A stretch of DNA of 43,979 nucleotides from Deltaproteobacteria bacterium. GTDB lineage: Bacteria > Myxococcota_A > JAADFL01. The stretch covers positions 1 to 43,979 of the forward strand of contig JAADFL010000057.1 in assembly GCA_013152945.1 (NCBI GenBank). Reading direction: 5' to 3'. Of the stretch, positions 21,614 through 42,167 are shown piece after piece. The notes beneath the pieces were generated by a model. The model saw only the letters and a list, made by a program, of their open reading frames with translations, was not told where the DNA came from and ran no database searches. The translations under genes and the position numbers were made by a program. Numbering within the stretch: position 1 is the stretch's first letter; each line of letters opens with the position of its first letter.

Positions 21614-22702
21614 TTACGGGCAGACCTGGTCCACGCAGACCTTGGTGTCCGCGGTATCACAGACAAGGCTCTTGCATTCCTTGTTGTCTTCGCAGGCTGC
21701 GCCGTTGTCCTTAAATGCCTTGCATTTTCCTTCAACCAGGTCACAGTAACCATTGATACATGTGGTCGTCGTATCATTGCTGCATGCTTCCCCAACTTTG
21801 GGATAGGCAGTGCATGTCCCTTCTGTCTGTCCGGCCGGAAAAACACAGTATGAGCCCCAGCAATCGGCTGTCGGCCTGTTTCCTCCACAGGCTTCGCCCA
21901 CCTTGGGTAATCCTACACACTTGGTGCCGTCACAGTAACTGTGCACGTCACAAGGATCGCCGTTTGTATCATCACACGTCTCGCCAATGGATATTATCTT
22001 GTGGCATTTCTTGTCATCCAGGCATTTAAGGCCCGCCGCGCAAGTGGCGCCGCCTGAGCAACTCCCATTTTCCTGGCTAAGCTTGGCGCACTTTCCGTTT
22101 ACACATGCAAGCCCTGCGCTGCAAATTTCACCCTTCTGCTTGTCGCAGCTTTCGTTTTCCAGCTTGAACATCTTGCATGAACCGCTCTTGCATGTAAGCG
22201 TCGGATATCCCTTTGGCATGCACCATGCACCCAGAGCGCATTCAGCAGTCCATGCAGTGCAATCTCCACCCTGGCCGACCAGTCCCACGAACACATCCTG
22301 GCATTCCTGGATCAACGACGTGTTATCCCAGGAGATCTGCTCGCACGAAGCTTTCTTGACTGCATCAAAGCATGACTGCGCCTTTTCGGAATGGTACTGC
22401 AACCTTTTTTTATTTATGGACGTGTTCCAACCCTCGGGTTGCCCCTTGCAGAGGTCCTGCAATGCATCCACACATTCCTTTTTTGTGGTGTATCCTTCGT
22501 AAGAGAGGGCCTCCTTACTGAAGCACTCGATACGTTTCTCGCAAAAAACGTCCAATAACTGCGGGCAATAATCAGCTATGGCCACGCCTTTTTTGCCGCC
22601 TGAATCGCTACCTCCGCATCCTTGGGTCAAAAAAGCTACTCCGATCAAGGGCCCAAAAGCCAATGAAAGGGAAACCAACCAGAAAAGCTTACCTTTTTTC
22701 AT
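21614..22702 (-). CDS. Cys-rich outer-membrane/surface lipoprotein
   Basis: Secreted lipoprotein of 362 residues. The signal peptide ends in FLTQGC|GG. The mature N-terminus (about 45-160) has a helical Cys pattern C-x7-C-x5-C shared with the lipoprotein at 28485-29012. The rest is built of many short Cys-containing repeats of Dickkopf-like type, with recurring 'G.C.......C.....C' and phrases such as KVGEAC and 'DGTKCVGLPKVGEAC'. Such proteins are common in myxobacteria and relatives. I use the ATG at 22702 with a strong GGAGG 8 nt upstream. Confidence 0.85.
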   Translation of the reverse strand: MKKGKLFWLVSLSLAFGPLIGVAFLTQGCGGSDSGGKKGVAIADYCPQLLDVFCEKRIECFSKEALSYEGYTTKKECVDALQDLCKGQPEGWNTSINKKRLQYHSEKAQSCFDAVKKASCEQISWDNTSLIQECQDVFVGLVGQGGDCTAWTAECALGAWCMPKGYPTLTCKSGSCKMFKLENESCDKQKGEICSAGLACVNGKCAKLSQENGSCSGGATCAAGLKCLDDKKCHKIISIGETCDDTNGDPCDVHSYCDGTKCVGLPKVGEACGGNRPTADCWGSYCVFPAGQTEGTCTAYPKVGEACSNDTTTTCINGYCDLVEGKCKAFKDNGAACEDNKECKSLVCDTADTKVCVDQVCP

Positions 22703-22780
22703 TGCTGTTTTTCCTCCTTTTTTCCATGTGCCTGCGTTCAACCTGCACGCAGTCACCACACTTCCAATAACATTGGCATT

Positions 22781-23785: not shown

Positions 23786-25201
23786 GTGGTGAAAAAGATA
23801 ATACTTGCAATCAACTCGAAAAGGGTGGCCCACAGAAACGTTCGCACTGCATTGGCTCCTTCCGGACATACCGTGATTGCGGCAACCTCTGCACAAGAAG
23901 GCCTGGCCATAGCCCGCAGGATTCGGCCGTCATTGATTTTCCTGTCCTATCATTTGCCTGGCGGAAGTGCGGTCAATTTTCTCCACAAGCTTTCCGAACT
24001 CCCGTTGATACGAAACGTGCCGGTAGTCCTGACATCAGAGGAGGACGGTGTAGTTCCGGAAGACGTGACCCGGTCCAGGAACGTGGTGGACCAGATAACG
24101 TTTCCCATAGAACCTGATGCCTTGCTCACCCTGACCAAACATCTTTTCGAGAAATACAAGGACCAGGGATTGGAAGAGGAAAAGCCCGGGGAAGAAATCA
24201 CTCAACAAACGGTTACAAGGCCGGTGGCATTGGGGGAGGAAGCATTACCTGAAGAGTACGCAAAACGTCATGATTCAAAAATCGTCATGCCCAAGGGCAA
24301 GGCATCTCCCAAGGAAAGGATGAAGCGGGCCTTTGCAGCAGCCATGGCCGCGCAGTTCGGCAAAATAAAGGGCCTTCCAAGTTCCCGTCACGCCGCAAGG
24401 TGGATGTATGAACTGGCCGAACGTGTCCTGGAAGCTGAATACGTCCCTGCCCGTGACACCGGGGAGGAAAGCCGGGATTCTGCCCTGCGCGGTGACCTGG
24501 GCGCAATTCCTGTTGCGGAAATTCTCCAACTCCTGGCGTTGCAAAGGCAGACCGGATCATTCAACATAGTGCACAAGTCGGCTGACATCAGTATATACTT
24601 CGACAAGGGAATAATAAGCATTTGCCAGGCCAGGAACTTGAGCGAGGAGTTCCTGCTCGGCCGTTACCTGGTACAAGGAGGCTGGATTTCCAGGGAGGAC
24701 CTGGAACTTCTCCTGGCCAGCAGGAAGGGCACGAAAAAAATGCTGGGACAGCAGCTCATCAGGCTCGGATACCTTACCAACGACCAGCTCGAGGACGCCC
24801 TTGCAAAGCAGTCTGCAGAGGTGGTTTACGAGGCATTGAGATGGTCTGACGGCTTCTTCTTCTTCAGGGCAGGAGAAAAACCGCCGAAAGAGACTGCAGA
24901 ACTCAAGCTCTCTTTAAGGGTGGACACTCTGCTCATGGAGGGATTCCGGCGTGTTGACGAGTGGAGGCTTATCCAAAAGGAGATAAGGAAATTCGACCAG
25001 GTATTCGAAAAGGACGAGGGAAGAATAAAAGATTTGACTTCGGAAAAACTCACCATGGAAGAAAGAAGAATACTCAAGCTGATTAACGGCAAGAATTCGG
25101 TGCGGTCGATAGTCAAGAAATCCAACAAGTCATCCTTCGAGGCAAGCAAGATTCTCTATAGACTGTTGTCCATGCACCTGATAAGGCCTGTGGAAGAGTG
25201 A
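23786..25201 (+). CDS. Pseudo-receiver plus DUF4388 regulatory protein
   Basis: The 471 residues have four parts. Residues 1-120 follow the response-regulator fold, but the phospho-Asp is Ser54 (in LIFLSYHLPG), the acidic pair after strand 1 is Asn-Ser and the Lys near the end (FPIEP) is missing, so it should not be phosphorylated in the usual way. A charged linker (about 125-225) follows. Residues about 232-345 form a DUF4388 domain ('ALRGDLGAIPVAEILQLLAL', 'IYFDKGIISIC', 'GRYLVQGGWISREDL'). A winged-helix-like end (about 425-468) closes the protein. GTG 23786 has GGAGG upstream. It overlaps the CheW-like gene by 4 bp. DUF4388 occurs in PatA-type and deltaproteobacterial regulators of gliding and development; the precise role is unknown. 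Confidence 0.82.
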   Translation: MVKKIILAINSKRVAHRNVRTALAPSGHTVIAATSAQEGLAIARRIRPSLIFLSYHLPGGSAVNFLHKLSELPLIRNVPVVLTSEEDGVVPEDVTRSRNVVDQITFPIEPDALLTLTKHLFEKYKDQGLEEEKPGEEITQQTVTRPVALGEEALPEEYAKRHDSKIVMPKGKASPKERMKRAFAAAMAAQFGKIKGLPSSRHAARWMYELAERVLEAEYVPARDTGEESRDSALRGDLGAIPVAEILQLLALQRQTGSFNIVHKSADISIYFDKGIISICQARNLSEEFLLGRYLVQGGWISREDLELLLASRKGTKKMLGQQLIRLGYLTNDQLEDALAKQSAEVVYEALRWSDGFFFFRAGEKPPKETAELKLSLRVDTLLMEGFRRVDEWRLIQKEIRKFDQVFEKDEGRIKDLTSEKLTMEERRILKLINGKNSVRSIVKKSNKSSFEASKILYRLLSMHLIRPVEE

Positions 25202-25590
25202 GTGCCTTGGGGCCTGTCGCGTTTACACATGGCGCAAGGATGTTCGGCCTGGAACCCGATTACGTGATCGAGGCCAGGCCTTTCTTCGAACTCGTCGAAT
25301 TGCCCGGATCCCCGAAAGGACTGCTCGGATGCGTACTCCAGGACGGACAATTCGTTCCGGCTGTTGACGCAGGCATTATCCTGAACGAGGTTGATGACAA
25401 TGCTTTTAATGCTTTTAAGGTTCTCTTGGTTGTAGGCAAGGGCTCGAAGGTCATTGCTCTTGCTCTCAAAGACATTCCCATGGCGATTGAAAATGAAAAC
25501 AAGGAACAAACCGGTCAATTACAATTCCTGGAGATCGACGAGCTCTTGAAATCATGTGAGGCACTGGTGCAAGGGGGTGACGTGAAATGA
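25198..25590 (+). CDS. CheW-like protein 1
   Basis: A 130-residue stand-alone protein with the CheW beta-fold pattern: 'VIEARPFFELVELPGSPKGLLGCVLQDGQFVPAVDAG' resembles the CheW VxxIxxxxxxxxxP..p.yi.GvinlRG.iipviDl sequence. It starts at GTG 25198, overlapping the preceding stop, and its end overlaps the next start (ATGA). CheW normally couples receptors to CheA; no CheA is encoded here, so the partner is probably the HAMP protein or another receptor elsewhere. The fold assignment is moderately secure. Confidence 0.7.
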   Translation: MSALGPVAFTHGARMFGLEPDYVIEARPFFELVELPGSPKGLLGCVLQDGQFVPAVDAGIILNEVDDNAFNAFKVLLVVGKGSKVIALALKDIPMAIENENKEQTGQLQFLEIDELLKSCEALVQGGDVK

Positions 25591-26726
25591 GCGCCTTTGA
25601 CGAAGTCAGCAGGAGGAGAGTCAGAAAAACAGGCCGTCAGGGGCTCGGTTTCCATAAATTCACCTTGTTCAACTGCATTATATTCATGATGGCAGGCCCT
25701 GCCCTGCCCTGGGCGTTCACCATGTGGACGAACCTCGACATCCGTACCGCCGCACTCATGTCGATTGGTATCATGTTCCTCATAGGCCTGCTCTTGTACC
25801 TGGCTATCAGCAAGGGTCTTTTCCAACCGATCTCAAGAATTTTGGAAGCATCAAACCGCCTGCTGGAAGGAGACATCTCAGCCAAGTCCGAACTCGATGA
25901 CAAATTCGGTCCGCTGGAGAAGGTTGCAGGACTCCTATTGGAACTTGTTGAAAAGCTGGAATCCGTATCAGGCGCCGAACTTGAACTGGAGACGGTTCGC
26001 AAGGAAATCGAGTCAATGACATCGGTGATAAGAACAGCCGCCTCTGGCGATCTCTCGGTAAACGCCTCGATCCAGGGAGATATGGCAAACCTGGGAGACA
26101 GGTTGTCGGAGTTGATAAGGAAGAACCGCTTGCTGGCTGAAAAGGCACAGACCCTGGTATCGGCTGTTGAGCAGGGAGCGGGCGCCATTTCGAACTTCGA
26201 TGACCAAAATGGTTCGGGCATGTCAATGGTTGAAGATGCTTCGGCTCTCGCCCTGGAGCTTGTTTCACTGAAATCACAGGCAGAGCATGTCTTGGACGGT
26301 GCTGAAGATCCCCTTGCAGAGTCAGTCCAAAGACTCGGCATAATCTCCCTCAACCTGGCAAAGTCTGCTTCAAGACTGGAGTCAAAGCAGGGAATCGAAA
26401 TTCAGGCACTGACCGGCCGGCTGGCCGCTGAATGCGCCAAATTAAGAGAGTCATTGAATGAAAGCACGCCTGACAATGGAATTTCCAGGTCCGTGTCCGG
26501 TAAAATCGCATCGCTTGCGTCCAAGGCGGGCACGCTGGCAAAAACACTGGAAAAAGAGTTCTCAAAGCTGGACGGCCTCTCGGCGTCTGTTGCAAAATTG
26601 CTTACTGCCGCTTCGGAACTCAAGGCCGAACTCGAACTAATGAGGCTGGATGGTCAGCCTGAATATGGAGAGAACATTTCAAATGAACCAGGCCGCAATT
26701 CTGGAAATTCTGCTCCGGTCGATTGA
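25587..26726 (+). CDS. HAMP-domain membrane protein with coiled-coil signaling region
   Basis: The 379 residues begin with two transmembrane helices (about 25-47 and 55-74) separated by a short periplasmic loop of about 7 residues, then a HAMP domain ('LFQPISRILEASNRLLEGDIS', about 78-128). The rest is a long Ala/Leu/Ser-rich helical coil (130-355) like a methyl-accepting chemotaxis protein, but I do not see the conserved receptor tip (EVRxLAxRS). It therefore looks receptor-like but cannot couple to CheA in the standard way. It lies between two CheW-like genes and overlaps both. Inference: a scaffold or sensor without a classic sensory domain. Confidence 0.75.
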   Translation: MSAFDEVSRRRVRKTGRQGLGFHKFTLFNCIIFMMAGPALPWAFTMWTNLDIRTAALMSIGIMFLIGLLLYLAISKGLFQPISRILEASNRLLEGDISAKSELDDKFGPLEKVAGLLLELVEKLESVSGAELELETVRKEIESMTSVIRTAASGDLSVNASIQGDMANLGDRLSELIRKNRLLAEKAQTLVSAVEQGAGAISNFDDQNGSGMSMVEDASALALELVSLKSQAEHVLDGAEDPLAESVQRLGIISLNLAKSASRLESKQGIEIQALTGRLAAECAKLRESLNESTPDNGISRSVSGKIASLASKAGTLAKTLEKEFSKLDGLSASVAKLLTAASELKAELELMRLDGQPEYGENISNEPGRNSGNSAPVD

Positions 26727-27249
26727 ACTAAAGGACCTCGCAAAGAGGCTCTGGAGTATCGGGGCTAAAGAGACCGGCGGCGAATTGCAGGCGATCGCCT
26801 CTGTAACCGATTCGATTGCCTCCGGCCTGGACAAGCGAGTTATTTCGGAACTTACGAAAGATTCTTATACTCCTGCAATCGCAATAAAGGCGGCAGGTAG
26901 AGAGGTTGCTGTTTTCTCATCGAACACGGAGATAATGCCTCCGAGGAACGATATAATCGAACTCGCAAAACTGAAATCAAGGGGAAGGAATCTGAGACAT
27001 CTCTTCTTGCACCAAGTATTCAGGACCGAACCCGGCAAGGGACCGTTCGCAGCCCTGCTTGTACAAAGGCCCACGTGCGACATTCTGCTGCCGGTGGACG
27101 ATCTGCCCAGACAAACGGTGGTGATTCCTGCAAGGTTCGGAGAGTTGATGAATTCCCATCCAATCTATGGACTCATGGCAATAGAACCTGGACGACGGGT
27201 ATTGCCTGTATTGAATATGGAAAGAATCGAGACCCTTGCAAGCGATTGA
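26683..27249 (+). CDS. CheW-like protein 2
   Basis: About 188 residues. The central part ('DSYTPAIAIKAAGREVAVFSSNTEIMPP') and the C-terminal 'ALLVQRPTCDILLPVDDLPRQTVVIPARFGELMNSHPIYGLMAIEPGRRVLPVLNMERI' match the CheW pattern, where a loop, 'I.G......g.v.pvldl..l', closes the fold. The gene starts within the HAMP gene; ATG 26683 has GGAGAG at a suitable distance, while ATG 26665 is an alternative. The overlap of 44 bp in another frame indicates translational coupling. Fold assignment is by pattern only. Confidence 0.65.
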   Translation: MNQAAILEILLRSIELKDLAKRLWSIGAKETGGELQAIASVTDSIASGLDKRVISELTKDSYTPAIAIKAAGREVAVFSSNTEIMPPRNDIIELAKLKSRGRNLRHLFLHQVFRTEPGKGPFAALLVQRPTCDILLPVDDLPRQTVVIPARFGELMNSHPIYGLMAIEPGRRVLPVLNMERIETLASD

Positions 27250-35880: not shown

Positions 35881-37581
35881 TTGGACAAAGAGAAAGGAGA
35901 GGTTTCGGATACTCGAGACCTTGCGGTTCTCCATGCCTTCACCGCAGCCCTTGCACGCACTGTAAAGGCATCCAGGATATACCTTCCAAACAATGAGGTC
36001 TTGCTGACCTTCAAGAGTGAACTCAAGGACCATCTGAAAGAAGTTCTCGAGGAGAACGGCGAACTGGAACTGGATGTCCAGCCCGGTGAAATCAGGTTCC
36101 AGGGCTCCACCGTATACAAGGACATAGGTGCTAACAAGGGGTTCGCTTCCAAGATATATAACGATGGGATGAGAAGACTCATTCTTCGCCAGGGCATGAC
36201 CGAGTCCGAATTGGATGACCTTTTGGATGTCATGGTTACGGACTATGAGGAAGAAGTCAATCTCGAAGATGACCTGGTCACCAAGGTATGGGAAAAAGAC
36301 TTCACCAATGTTGAAATAACCATTGCAGAAGAAATATTGAGATCCACCGATATATGGGATCCGAACGCGGTTGATCCCGAGAAGGTGGCGAGTTATCTCG
36401 AGTATGCCGGGCCTGGAAACGAAGATGAAGAAAACGCCATGGTTCAGGAGTTTTCATTTCTTGGGACGGTCGGCCCGTCCAGCTACCAGCACACGGTTAC
36501 AATGGAAGAGCTCAAGGAACTTGAAGCAGAGGTGCAAAAGGCAAGGCTTTCCAATCCATTGCTGGCCTTCAACGAGCTTGTGTTCGAATTGCTTGATTCG
36601 GATAGGAACCCGGAAGAACTACGTATATTGCTTGAAACCGCTTCAAGAAACCTATACCACATGGCCAGTCAAGGCCTGCTGGAAGCATCAATGGAAACCG
36701 TGGAACGTCTGAAGAGCGTCGGCTTGTTGTTGTCCATCCCGGACATGGACGTGGATAAAGAGGTGGAAAACATCCTGGCCAGGGCTTCTTTACAAGCAGC
36801 ACAAAGAGCCCTGGATTATGCCGAACAGGCACAGGATGTTAGGACCGACGAGCTGATTTCTTTTCTCAAGATTCTCGACGGCACAGTCATAGACCTGCTG
36901 TTCGAAAGGCTGGAATCCACGAAAAGGCCCCATGTTCGTTCAGCCCTGGTGGAGGCCCTTACTCACCATTGCGGCAACCGCCATGATATCCTGAGGACGA
37001 AACTCCTGGAATCGTCGAACCCGGCTCTACTTAGAGACCTGATAAATATAATAGCTGCAATTGGTGATTCCGGTTTCCTCAAATATCTTCCCAAGTTTCT
37101 ACGCCACCACGAAGTTCAGGTCAGAGCCGAAGCTGTTCGCGCCCTTGGCAGGTTCAAATCCGCAGAGGTGGTCCCTCTCCTGCTGATGGCCTTGAAGGAT
37201 CCACAGGAGAGGATCAGACTTACCTCTACCAGGCAGCTTGCGTACTCGGAAGATATCCGGGCCTTTGAAGGCATCAAGGAACGGATCGAATCACAGGATT
37301 TCAACAAGTTCAGTATGACCGAACAGAGGTACCTTTTTACCGCTCTCGCCCTGCTGGGAAAGGAATCCGTTGTTTCTTACCTTTCAAGAATGCTGGACGA
37401 CACCTCTGGCTTTGGCGGACACAGTTCGCCCAAGGGAATAAATGCCGTTCATGCCCTTGCAACAATCGGTACACCGTCGGCCCTGGATGTCCTGAAAAAG
37501 GGCGCAACCAAAGGCCCGAGAAAGATCAAGGAAGCTTGTAACAGGGCCTTGTCCAAGCTGGCGAACAAGAGGAGCGGATAG
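35881..37581 (+). CDS. HEAT-repeat protein with N-terminal module shared with the HD-GYP neighbour
   Basis: The 566-residue cytoplasmic protein has an N-terminal module (about 1-130, 'ASRIYLPNNEVLLTFKSEL') that resembles the start of the next gene's product. An acidic stretch follows (about 125-185) and then alpha-helical repeats; clear HEAT/PBS-type units appear near residues 395-440 and at 'HHEVQVRAEAVRALGRF' (about 405-421), with others from 450 to 560. It starts at TTG 35881 with GGGGGC upstream. It overlaps the HD-GYP gene by 1 bp. Probably a protein-interaction scaffold for a signaling pathway. Confidence 0.75.
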   Translation: MDKEKGEVSDTRDLAVLHAFTAALARTVKASRIYLPNNEVLLTFKSELKDHLKEVLEENGELELDVQPGEIRFQGSTVYKDIGANKGFASKIYNDGMRRLILRQGMTESELDDLLDVMVTDYEEEVNLEDDLVTKVWEKDFTNVEITIAEEILRSTDIWDPNAVDPEKVASYLEYAGPGNEDEENAMVQEFSFLGTVGPSSYQHTVTMEELKELEAEVQKARLSNPLLAFNELVFELLDSDRNPEELRILLETASRNLYHMASQGLLEASMETVERLKSVGLLLSIPDMDVDKEVENILARASLQAAQRALDYAEQAQDVRTDELISFLKILDGTVIDLLFERLESTKRPHVRSALVEALTHHCGNRHDILRTKLLESSNPALLRDLINIIAAIGDSGFLKYLPKFLRHHEVQVRAEAVRALGRFKSAEVVPLLLMALKDPQERIRLTSTRQLAYSEDIRAFEGIKERIESQDFNKFSMTEQRYLFTALALLGKESVVSYLSRMLDDTSGFGGHSSPKGINAVHALATIGTPSALDVLKKGATKGPRKIKEACNRALSKLANKRSG

Positions 37582-39068
37582 TGAAAGCCTCTATGCCGTC
37601 TACAGAGAAAGCTAGGCGTAAGGGCCTTTTCACGCGGCTTGGGAGGCTCTTTATCAACGGCTTGAATTCTTTTTTGAGGAATGCCCGGCTGCATGAACCG
37701 AACAACAAGGCATTTCTTCAATCTCTCAACGCTTTGATGGTGTCGATTGAGCCCATCTTCGAAGAAGATTCCCATGCGTCTATCGAGGTGAACAAGGATG
37801 CCATCTTCGTTAACGAAGTCAGGGTCAGACCCGATGCCTCCTGCTCGGCCAGTTACCGGGCCCTCATCATCGATTTCAATAGGAGGGGGGTAGGCGGAAT
37901 CCTGATCAAGGAGGGGTGCAATAAACAGAACCTAATCGACACCGCCCGGATATGGCGTTTCAACGAGCCCGGCGAGGAATCCTTGCTTGACACCCTCAAC
38001 GAACAAATCAAGGAAGCCGGCGCCGAGCATTTCATCGCGTTTACCAAGCCTCGTTTCATCGCCGACAGTGAAGAAGAGAGCATGGGAGACCCGAGAGAAT
38101 TTGCTCTTCACGTGTACGGCCAGGCCGTCTCCTACCTTCGAGGCCTGCCCAGGCAAATAGCAATGGGCAAGATGGCCTCGGCCAGGAGAGCCAAGAGACT
38201 TGTCCAAAGCTTCGTCGACCTGTCATCAAGGCGTGATTTCAATTTTACGGCCCTGGCTGTAATCAAGAATTATGACGAGTACACGTATTCTCATTCCGTG
38301 AATGTATCCGTCCTTTGCATATCCTTCGGCCAGCGGTTGGGATTGTCAAGAAGTGAGCTGGTGGATCTGGGCATGGCAGGCCTTTTCCACGACGTTGGCA
38401 AGTTGTCGGTTCCGATCAACATTCTCAACAAGCCTGGAAAGTTTGATTCCGGTGAATGGCAGATAATGAAAAACCATTCGACAAAGGGTTTCATCAAACT
38501 CATTTCCATGCCTGAATTCGGTCCGGCTCATTTCAAAAGGGCGATCGTTGCGTTCGAGCATCATTGTGACTATGATCTGGGGGGGTACCCGAGGAAATCG
38601 AATCCCAGGCCATTGCACCTGTTTTCCAGGATTTGCGCTATAGCGGATACATACGATGCCATGACATCAAAGCGGATTTACCAGCCGGCCTTTTCTCCGG
38701 ACCAGGCCATAAAAATCCTCCTGGAAAAGAGCGGTAAGAAATATGACCCGCTGTTGGTCAGGGCTTTTGTCAGCGCAATGGGAGTGTACCCCGTGGGCAC
38801 CGTGGTCGTGCTCGATACGGGCGAAGTCGGAATCGTGTTGGAGGCCAATCCCTACTCTTTGTCCATGAACAGGCCGAAGGTGAAGCTCGTGGGTAAGTCT
38901 CCCGACGATCCTTTGCTTGGAACCGTTGCAGACCTCACCGAGCAGGACGAAAAAGGCAGGTTCAAAAGGACCATATTACATCCGGCGGATCCGGCATTCT
39001 TTGGAATAGATGTTGCCAAGTTCTTGTTTTCGGACATACAGACCTCGAATTCTGGCCAAGGAGTATAA
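37581..39068 (+). CDS. HD-GYP domain protein with N- and C-terminal extensions
   Basis: The 495-residue protein contains an HD-GYP phosphodiesterase domain (about 210-400): HDVGK, 'EHHCDYDLGGYPR' and 'ICAIADTYDAMTSKRIYQPAF'. Canonical HHE is HHC here and GYP reads GGYP, so the metal/cyclic-di-GMP site is altered and activity is uncertain. The N-terminal module (about 30-90, 'NARLHEPNNKAFLQSLNAL') is shared with the HEAT protein. The C-terminal 100 residues ('YPVGTVVVLDTGEVGIVLEANP') form an extra beta domain seen in some HD-GYP proteins. GTG 37581 overlaps the upstream stop. The SDR gene follows after 2 bp. Confidence 0.85.
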   Translation: MKASMPSTEKARRKGLFTRLGRLFINGLNSFLRNARLHEPNNKAFLQSLNALMVSIEPIFEEDSHASIEVNKDAIFVNEVRVRPDASCSASYRALIIDFNRRGVGGILIKEGCNKQNLIDTARIWRFNEPGEESLLDTLNEQIKEAGAEHFIAFTKPRFIADSEEESMGDPREFALHVYGQAVSYLRGLPRQIAMGKMASARRAKRLVQSFVDLSSRRDFNFTALAVIKNYDEYTYSHSVNVSVLCISFGQRLGLSRSELVDLGMAGLFHDVGKLSVPINILNKPGKFDSGEWQIMKNHSTKGFIKLISMPEFGPAHFKRAIVAFEHHCDYDLGGYPRKSNPRPLHLFSRICAIADTYDAMTSKRIYQPAFSPDQAIKILLEKSGKKYDPLLVRAFVSAMGVYPVGTVVVLDTGEVGIVLEANPYSLSMNRPKVKLVGKSPDDPLLGTVADLTEQDEKGRFKRTILHPADPAFFGIDVAKFLFSDIQTSNSGQGV

Positions 39069-40040: not shown

Positions 40041-42167
40041 ATGAAAAAGTTCGGAAAGTACCTTCTGATACGGAAGGTAGCTTCAGGCGGCATGGCCGAT
40101 GTGTTCAAGGCCAAGGCACTTGGAATCCGGGGATTCACCAAGACATTGGCCATAAAGCGTATCCATCCGCACCTAACCGATGATGCCAGGTTTGTGAGGA
40201 TGTTTACGGACGAGGCAAAGATAGCCGCAGCATTGCTCCACTCGAATATCGTCCAGATTTACGATCTTGGTGAAACCGAGGGCATTCCATATATAGCCAT
40301 GGAATATGTGCCTGGCCGTGACCTGTTGGAGGTAGTAAGGAGATGTCATGAAGTAAGGCGCAGATTTCCCGTGGCCTTGGCCTGTAAAGTAGTTTCAGAG
40401 GTCTGCGACGGCCTTAATTATGCTCACGAGTTTTGCGGCCTTGACGGACTGCCTCTGGAAATAGTTCACCGTGACGTAACCCCGAGAAATATATTGATTG
40501 GGTTCAATGGCACCATCAAGCTCACGGATTTCGGTGTAGCCCGTGCAAGGCAACGGGAAGAAAAGACTGAGGCCGGACTGATAAAGGGCAAGGTGAGGTA
40601 CTTGAGCCCGGAAGCTGCAAAGGGGCTCGAGGTGGATAGGAGAAGCGATATCTTCTCTTTGGGCTTGGTTTTCATAGAGCTGCTTACTATGAGACCGTTT
40701 TTCGACCAGGAGAACGAGCTGGAGGTACTGCTTGCCATCTCTGAAGGCAAGCTTCCCACGGAACGCTTCGACGAGATACCGGAAAGGCTGGTAGGAGTAA
40801 TAAAAAAGGCACTTATCACGGACAGGGAAAGCCGTTTCTCGACGGCAAAGGAAATGAAGGAGGCCCTTCAAAGTGTAGCAGGAGATGAAATAGAGCAAGT
40901 CGGCCCGTACGAAGTCGCATCAGCCATGCATTTTTTATTCTCCAAAGAAATTGAAGACGAACGCTACGACGATCAGAGAATCGAAGAAGCTATTGTTGCA
41001 AAGATGGAGAAGTCCAGGACAGGAAGATCGATTCGGCCATCGCCAGTGACCAGGCCGGGACCGCCTCCCATGCCTCCGGATGCCCGGGAGGAGTCCCTAG
41101 AGTCCGAGCACGACGTCATCCCCTTGAGCACGGACCTGGAAAATGGTGATACCGGTTCCCTGGAGGTGGAAATACTGACGCCTGTCCCGGATCCACGGGA
41201 CATCAATCCTTCGTCGGATGCACGGTCGTGGGAAGAAGTAGATGTCACCGATGCAGCCCCGGATTCAATTTTGGGCGCCAGTCCAAGTAAACTATTTTCC
41301 CTGGAAAACAGTGACTCCGGCCCGATAGCAGCGCCCGAAAAGGGCAAGGCCGAAGACAAGCCGGGGCAGAAATACATCGAGCCCGGCGGTATACGGCCTG
41401 TTCCCCCATCTTCCCAGCCACAGGCGCTGGATGGGACTTTGGAACAAGACGGCGTGAAACCTGATTTCGAAGGAGACCTCGCCAGGACTTCGTTGGTGCA
41501 CGTCTTCCATACCCTTGCCGAGGAAAAATCCACAGGCCGGTTGGATGTAAAGCGCGAGCCGGTTCAAAAGGCCATATTTTTCAAGCAGGGTGAACCCCTG
41601 TTCGCAACTTCTAACGTGGAGGCCGAGCTGTTCGGTGAACACATAATTTCAAAAGGGATATTGTCCAGGGATGCTGTGGAAAAGGCCCTCGGCGAGGCAG
41701 CCCTGAAGCACGTAAGTCTTACAGCGGCCCTTCTGGCCATGGGACTACTGGCGCCTCACGATCTGTACAGGCATCTCTTGGAGCAGGTACGTGACAAGAT
41801 ACTGGATCTCTTTTCCTGGGTAAGCGGACAGTACGCATTTTACGCAGGTATCGATCCGCCCAGTACGGGCTATCCCCTAGGCTTGAATGCATACTCGCTG
41901 TTACTCGAAGGAATCAGGGAGCACGTCTCTGGTGTCATCATCAAGCGATCTATCGAGCCGTACTATCATCATCTGGTATTAAGGACCGGCGGAGCGCTTC
42001 CCGCCGATCTGAGACTGTCCGGCAAGGAACAGAGGATACTCAATCTTGTTGGCACAGGAGGCAAAGACCTTGGCAGCCTTATGACGCAGTCCATGAATGA
42101 AGAATTGACATTCAAGGTAATTTACCTGTTAAAAGAGATCAGGCGCATAACGTTTGTTTCGAAATAA
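40041..42167 (+). CDS. Ser/Thr protein kinase with C-terminal DUF4388 domain
   Basis: The 708-residue cytoplasmic kinase has an N-terminal Hanks-type domain (about 4-280): GGMADV, the VAIK-type lysine (K39), the conserved Glu in TDEAK, HRDVTPRN with catalytic D145, DFG (D163) and 'RYLSPEAAKG'. A long Pro/Ser/Asp-rich linker (about 320-465) follows, then a DUF4388 domain (about 473-620), 'FEGDLARTSLVHVFHTLAEEKSTGRLDVKRE' and 'FATSNVEAELFGEHIISKGIL', and a terminal winged-helix-like part. The same DUF4388 occurs in the protein at 23786-25201, so the two may share partners. The ATG follows CTTGGAGG. It stands alone. Confidence 0.93.
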   Translation: MKKFGKYLLIRKVASGGMADVFKAKALGIRGFTKTLAIKRIHPHLTDDARFVRMFTDEAKIAAALLHSNIVQIYDLGETEGIPYIAMEYVPGRDLLEVVRRCHEVRRRFPVALACKVVSEVCDGLNYAHEFCGLDGLPLEIVHRDVTPRNILIGFNGTIKLTDFGVARARQREEKTEAGLIKGKVRYLSPEAAKGLEVDRRSDIFSLGLVFIELLTMRPFFDQENELEVLLAISEGKLPTERFDEIPERLVGVIKKALITDRESRFSTAKEMKEALQSVAGDEIEQVGPYEVASAMHFLFSKEIEDERYDDQRIEEAIVAKMEKSRTGRSIRPSPVTRPGPPPMPPDAREESLESEHDVIPLSTDLENGDTGSLEVEILTPVPDPRDINPSSDARSWEEVDVTDAAPDSILGASPSKLFSLENSDSGPIAAPEKGKAEDKPGQKYIEPGGIRPVPPSSQPQALDGTLEQDGVKPDFEGDLARTSLVHVFHTLAEEKSTGRLDVKREPVQKAIFFKQGEPLFATSNVEAELFGEHIISKGILSRDAVEKALGEAALKHVSLTAALLAMGLLAPHDLYRHLLEQVRDKILDLFSWVSGQYAFYAGIDPPSTGYPLGLNAYSLLLEGIREHVSGVIIKRSIEPYYHHLVLRTGGALPADLRLSGKEQRILNLVGTGGKDLGSLMTQSMNEELTFKVIYLLKEIRRITFVSK

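Follow-up and report, generated by a model that had tools for sequence, protein, structure and literature searches.

Overlapping chemosensory-type genes without a CheA kinase in a deltaproteobacterial genome: a probable scaffold derived from a REC-DUF4388 operon

Four overlapping genes at the locus

The stretch of DNA analysed here, hereafter the window, covers positions 1 to 43,979 of contig JAADFL010000057.1 of a Deltaproteobacteria bacterium (assembly GCA_013152945.1, 4.84 Mb in 218 contigs) and carries a cluster of four genes whose products, named P1 to P4, are related to chemosensory proteins. All four open reading frames (ORFs) lie on the + strand (Table 1). Those of P1 and P2, and of P2 and P3, overlap by 4 nt, and that of P4 (26650-27249) starts within P3, its ATG at 26683, 10 nt after GGAGAG, being a likelier start than the ATG at 26650. 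A preliminary description, made from the letters and the ORF translations, had proposed four overlapping and translationally coupled genes assembled from chemosensory parts, which is confirmed. Codon use is gene-like in frame (+0.135, +0.135, +0.130 and +0.090 log units per codon for P1 to P4), the five other frames scoring at most +0.04 and a flanking methyltransferase gene, taken for comparison, +0.08; P4 is therefore considered as coding, though it is an orphan.

P1 combines a receiver (REC) domain with DUF4388, established as the PATAN domain (Makarova et al. 2006), and with a C-terminal tail that we read as winged-helix-like. The receiver scores below the Pfam cut-off (30.2 bits) and reads N/S/S/F at positions D10/D11/D54/K106, where all 77 orthologs with data, among 78 aligned, present D/D/D/K. 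In this alignment, the loss of the receiver site is unique to the window P1. A receiver without its key acidic residues, joined to DUF4388, had been noticed in the preliminary description, as had the CheW nature of P2, which is supported by an hhalign score of 39.8 (shuffle maximum 14.8) and by PDB matches that are CheW (E about 0.002). In the profile search suggested at that stage, PF14332 was matched by P1 and PF01584 by P2, and PF00672 (HAMP) remained sub-threshold in P3 (16.8 bits).

P3 displays one clear transmembrane helix and a probable second one preceding it, separated by a very short loop, and would for this reason have no periplasmic sensor. No MCPsignal (PF00015) match was found in P3 by Pfam search. 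Compared with HAMP receptor profiles, with 40 shuffles as control, it scored 55.7 against the HAMP proteins of the type B operons described below (shuffles 28.9) and 49.4 against MCPs (shuffles 27.6), mainly via the HAMP region, and these margins are flattering because shuffling removes the coiled-coil periodicity. The HAMP coiled coil without chemoreceptor tip announced in the preliminary description is thus retained, with a HAMP match that is sub-threshold in Pfam but above shuffles.

P4 had been presented as a second CheW-like protein. This was rejected, its score against the CheW profile (11.7) being lower than the shuffle maximum (14.5) and a Pfam search giving no match. When P4 was compared with the C-terminal 180 residues of 55 proteins, CheA and degenerate CheA taken together, its residues 62-186 aligned over the whole P5 domain with a score of 26.3, above the maximum of 60 shuffles (16.6) and above that of 65 decoys cut from other proteins of the window (15.8). 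This match to the C-terminal P5 domain makes a CheA stump the best reading of P4. The G2 box of the CheA ATPase (AGRGVGLD) aligns with LLRSIELK in P4, so that no nucleotide site would be left. When 23 CheA segments served as the alignment for a structure model of P4, residues 61-150 reached a pLDDT of about 90, and the closest structures were those of CheA P5 (Foldseek 6s1k and 1b3q; VIA Z 14.1, to 1b3q), followed by CheW. This model does not constitute independent evidence, since the CheA alignment itself holds the fold. P4 had no match by PDB sequence search, in PHROGs or in plasmids, and no clear homolog in 377 genomes of the phylum, where only three weak matches were obtained (E 0.002-0.007, 18 bits). 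An attempt to align P4 by MAFFT into five degenerate CheA proteins left it scattered, and this alignment was not used. No CheA with Hpt and ATPase domains is encoded on the window contig, P4 being the only CheA-like protein there. The idea of a module without CheA consequently holds for the kinase, absent from the locus, and fails in that a P5-like stump of CheA persists.

Table 1. Coordinates of the features of the four-gene cluster and of other ORFs of the window
Feature	Position	Strand	Details
P1, pseudo-receiver + DUF4388 (PATAN) + tail	23786..25201	+	471 aa, GTG start
P1 receiver domain without D10, D11, D54, K106 (N/S/S/F)	23801..24130	+	PF00072, 24 bits
P1 DUF4388/PATAN domain with helical insertion	24488..24967	+	PF14332, 94.6 bits, residues 235-394
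MshEN-like 24+5+24-residue tandem motif in DUF4388	24653..24811	+	residues 290-342; NF053729, 47.8 bits, cut-off 38
P2, CheW	25198..25590	+	130 aa; PF01584, 27.7 bits, cut-off 23.5
P3, membrane HAMP coiled-coil protein at receptor position	25587..26726	+	379 aa
P3 clear transmembrane helix (residues 50-80) and HAMP (77-103)	25734..25895	+	
P3 stretch aligned to receptor tip, eroded (LGIISLNLAKSASR-LESKQGIEIQALTGRLAAECAKL)	26334..26456	+	MAFFT alignment; no PF00015 match
P4, probable CheA C-terminal stump	26683..27249	+	188 aa from ATG 26683 (199 aa from ATG 26650)
P4 P5-like domain (CheA regulatory, CheW fold)	26866..27240	+	residues 62-186; hhalign 26.3
Cysteine-rich, signal-peptide-like lipoprotein-type ORF	21614-22759	-	381 aa, no Pfam match
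HEAT-repeat protein	35881-37581		
HD_5 (HD-GYP-like) protein	37581-39068		follows the HEAT-repeat protein
Ser/Thr protein kinase with C-terminal DUF4388	40041-42167		Pkinase 131.9 bits, DUF4388 68.3 bits; about 13 kb from the operon

Orthologous operons and a second kinase-less form

Full-length P1 orthologs are distributed throughout the Myxococcota. Their neighbourhoods were counted with profiles built in this analysis, over the best 80 of 276 confirmed P1 matches in named genomes, and the counts describe near orthologs, not DUF4388 proteins at large. CheA lies within 4.5 kb downstream of the P1 ortholog in 31 of these 80 loci, the remainder consisting of 6 with CheW/MCP (several of them cut by the contig end), 7 with a degenerate CheA, 25 with neither and 11 with too little flank. 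The complete operon, hereafter type A, has the order REC-DUF4388 (- CheY) - CheW - MCP - CheA, as in Polyangium fumosum L150, L102, L103, L106 and L156. Two of the nearest sets may be cited: in G266 (L057) the P1 ortholog precedes CheW, then a soluble MCP whose tip is normal and finally CheA, and in G045 (L042) CheW and CheA come immediately after it. Type A and the window operon share an orthologous P1, a CheW next to it, a receptor position and a CheA P5 domain in last place; they differ by the canonical receiver, the MCP tip (where an MCP gene is present) and the Hpt and ATPase boxes of CheA, all proper to type A. A Ser/Thr kinase gene stands divergently beside the P1 ortholog in many relatives (L042 8359-11481, L104 2483-5800, L091, L089, L097 and others) and is not found in that place in the window.

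The preliminary description had treated the cluster as free of CheA and had named a CheA gene beside the orthologous cluster of relatives as the observation that would contradict it; this is the arrangement encountered in many of them. Since CheA adjoins the orthologous cluster in many relatives and P4 is a P5-like stump, the window operon is better regarded as a kinase-less derivative of a known PATAN-type, pilus-class operon than as an unconnected new system, and its derivation from a pilus-type chemosensory operon is well supported.

Loss of the kinase is not unique to the window within this operon family, since a second kinase-less form (type B) is present in seven other genomes (L079, L088, L099, L107, L125, L128 and L130), whose P1 proteins are among the best HMMER-scoring orthologs, are monophyletic (100/100) and have a normal receiver. 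REC-DUF4388 is followed by a HAMP protein of 711-763 aa, a degenerate CheA of 441-471 aa and, in the loci read that far, a HEAT-repeat protein. The HAMP protein presents two transmembrane helices about 200 residues apart and an eroded tip. Of five degenerate CheA proteins examined, four have another residue in place of the phosphorylated His and all five in place of the Lys three positions further, residues that 49/49 CheA proteins keep; four have lost the N-box Asn, and none has the G2 box. The L088 protein retains a weak Hpt match (18.4 bits), and the middle part of the degenerate CheA can still be matched to ATPase domains of histidine kinases from other genomes. A profile of the degenerate CheA (A3) picked up the ATPase domains of ordinary histidine kinases in 250 of 377 genomes. 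This supports a CheA origin, but such a profile cannot serve to count loci of type B. At L111, a related tipless HAMP protein adjoins P1, and the contig ends thereafter.

The window operon resembles type B by its REC-DUF4388 protein, its tipless transmembrane HAMP coil protein and its kinase-dead CheA derivative. It differs from it by the non-canonical receiver, by the absence of the periplasmic region of about 200 aa, by the much shorter CheA remnant, by lacking the HEAT-repeat gene that comes next in type B, and by its CheW, of which type B has none. In the P1 tree, the window protein clusters only loosely with type B (86/90) and has a branch length of 1.87, so that a shared origin of both kinase-less forms is possible but not established. 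The HEAT-repeat protein located elsewhere in the window showed no detectable homology with those of type B. Type B genomes have a second che cluster (protein of about 470 aa - CheY - MCP - CheW - CheY - CheA), which was rejected as an ortholog of the window operon because of its other order and lack of a P1 ortholog.

A putative phosphorylation-independent scaffold and its alternatives

In the window lineage, the kinase, the receptor tip and the receiver site appear to have been lost jointly from genes that are apparently intact. We consider it probable that the cluster is a scaffold or switch independent of phosphorylation, issued from a pilus-type (Tfp, Pix/Tax-like) chemosensory operon of Myxococcota. 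The phosphorelay would have disappeared with the reduction of CheA to its P5 coupling domain (P4), of the receptor to a protein without sensor and tip (P3) and of the receiver to a domain without phosphorylation residues (P1), and the remaining parts, namely a membrane coil, CheW, P5 and DUF4388, would be binding parts. CheW and P5 have a common fold and occupy alternating places in the rings of ordinary chemosensory arrays, and on this ground P2 and P4 could pair in the same way in a complex tethered to the membrane by P3. This complex would recruit or release P1, the output protein, whose DUF4388 domain may bind a partner without phosphorylation, the likeliest one being the motor ATPase of a pilus or of a secretion system; the host genome has 12 matches to this ATPase family (PilB/PilT/GspE). 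The computations show what the genes are, that the context of the operon is conserved, which residues and domains have been lost and that the coding is gene-like; complex formation, phosphorylation-independent output and the pilus target are inferred.

Several points weigh against this interpretation. In absolute terms, P4 matches P5 weakly, with a pairwise E of about 0.001 and a probability of 22%; the alignment behind its guided model is made of CheA relatives and biases the model toward the P5 fold, and an alignment-free AlphaFold2 model was uninformative (pLDDT 33). The kinship of P3 with receptors is based largely on HAMP and on gene position, the P1 tree does not decide whether the direct ancestor was of type A or of type B form, and the suggested link with pili is drawn from other systems rather than from the window operon itself. 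The relatives sampled are at the level of the phylum, the genome collections including no close (same-class) relative of the window lineage.

Decay of the operon, in which the losses would reflect a disused pathway and the ORFs would be relics, is an unlikely explanation in our view, although four separate losses in one operon, the long P1 branch and the orphan status of P4 speak for it. Against it stand four ORFs that stay open across 3.4 kb, codon use that is gene-like in their own frames only, stop/start overlaps of 4 nt, a well-kept DUF4388 and a parallel kinase-less form in seven genomes with a monophyletic P1. Alternatively, P2, P3 and P4 would join arrays driven by a CheA encoded elsewhere, with P1 as an adaptor. 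The genome does encode one full CheA and two CheW genes on another contig (C22, locus L077) and three further loci with good MCP signalling domains, and P2 is a recognisable CheW; but P3 is devoid of the tip required by CheA/CheW arrays, P1 is not phosphorylatable and array partners are otherwise co-encoded in relatives, which makes such an accessory module rather improbable. A last alternative, in which the cluster has no relation to chemosensory operons and its HAMP and CheW-fold likeness is due to chance or to generic features, as the lack of significant family matches for P3 and P4 taken alone might suggest, is hardly credible given a CheW above cut-off, the specificity of P4 for CheA P5 and a gene order agreeing with that of the orthologous CheA operons.

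The phosphorylation-independent scaffold therefore remains our preferred reading. A broader proposal, more tentative and which we would rather doubt than assert, is that pilus-type operons of Myxococcota turned more than once into receptor/CheW/P5 scaffolds controlling a DUF4388 output by binding alone, the window and type B operons being two forms of them. Chemosensory arrays are usually understood as machines controlling a kinase; if the scaffold reading is true, the interfaces of an array would be capable of signalling, or of holding a scaffold together, in the absence of a phosphorelay. A conserved set on which this can be tested is offered by type B, which may lend itself to such tests better than the window operon does.

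Comparison with known systems

Within the library searched, no paper was found on DUF4388 with CheW and nothing direct on kinase-less Che operons, and the preliminary description was fair in stating that it knew of no named system of this kind. The nearest known systems are the pix/tax operons of Synechocystis, which for pilus-dependent phototaxis comprise PixG (PATAN-CheY), PixH (CheY), PixI (CheW), PixJ (MCP) and PixL (CheA). In Synechocystis, regulators with DUF4388/PATAN bind PilB, the motor of the pilus, and are found in MCP-CheA-CheW-CheY operons (PMC10519157, PMC5812497); for those of the tax operons, action on the pilus motor is either assumed or demonstrated (PMC5812497, PMC7690835, PMC10519157). 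A PATAN/DUF4388 regulator accompanied by CheW, a receptor and CheA is likewise what the complete Myxococcota orthologs display, several with an extra CheY. The order of domains is PATAN-REC in Synechocystis and REC-DUF4388 here. Among the traits of this class, the window operon retains the PATAN/DUF4388 response regulator and CheW (P2), and lacks the phosphorylatable receiver (DD, D, K), the MCP signalling domain with its hairpin tip and, at this locus, a CheA with Hpt and ATPase domains.

The DUF4388 domain of P1 also recalls the c-di-GMP receptor domain MshEN, with which it shares the spacing of a 53-residue tandem motif and a match to NF053729 (c-di-GMP_motif model) above cut-off. In the MshEN pattern, both motifs open with Arg (position 1) and close with Gln (position 24); compared with it (PMC5013675), P1 has both Arg replaced (L290, M319) as well as one of the two Gln (R313), and keeps Q342. 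With one of the four Arg/Gln contacts conserved, binding of c-di-GMP by P1 appears doubtful from its residues and is not claimed, despite the NF053729 match. The same 53-residue layout is seen in the DUF4388 insertion of the P1 orthologs, the first Arg of each motif being mostly absent family-wide.

Finally, two proteins of other bacteria offer partial parallels. In Myxococcus, the control of pili involves the pseudo-receiver FrzS, and two PATAN proteins are found together with SgmX (PMC11580455). In Pseudomonas, FimL shares homology with the ChpA N-terminus and brings PilG to the pole (PMC10519157). Unlike the window operon, FrzS and FimL are single proteins, with neither a reduced operon nor DUF4388, but they provide precedents in pilus polarity for a pseudo-receiver and for a CheA-related protein that is not a kinase.

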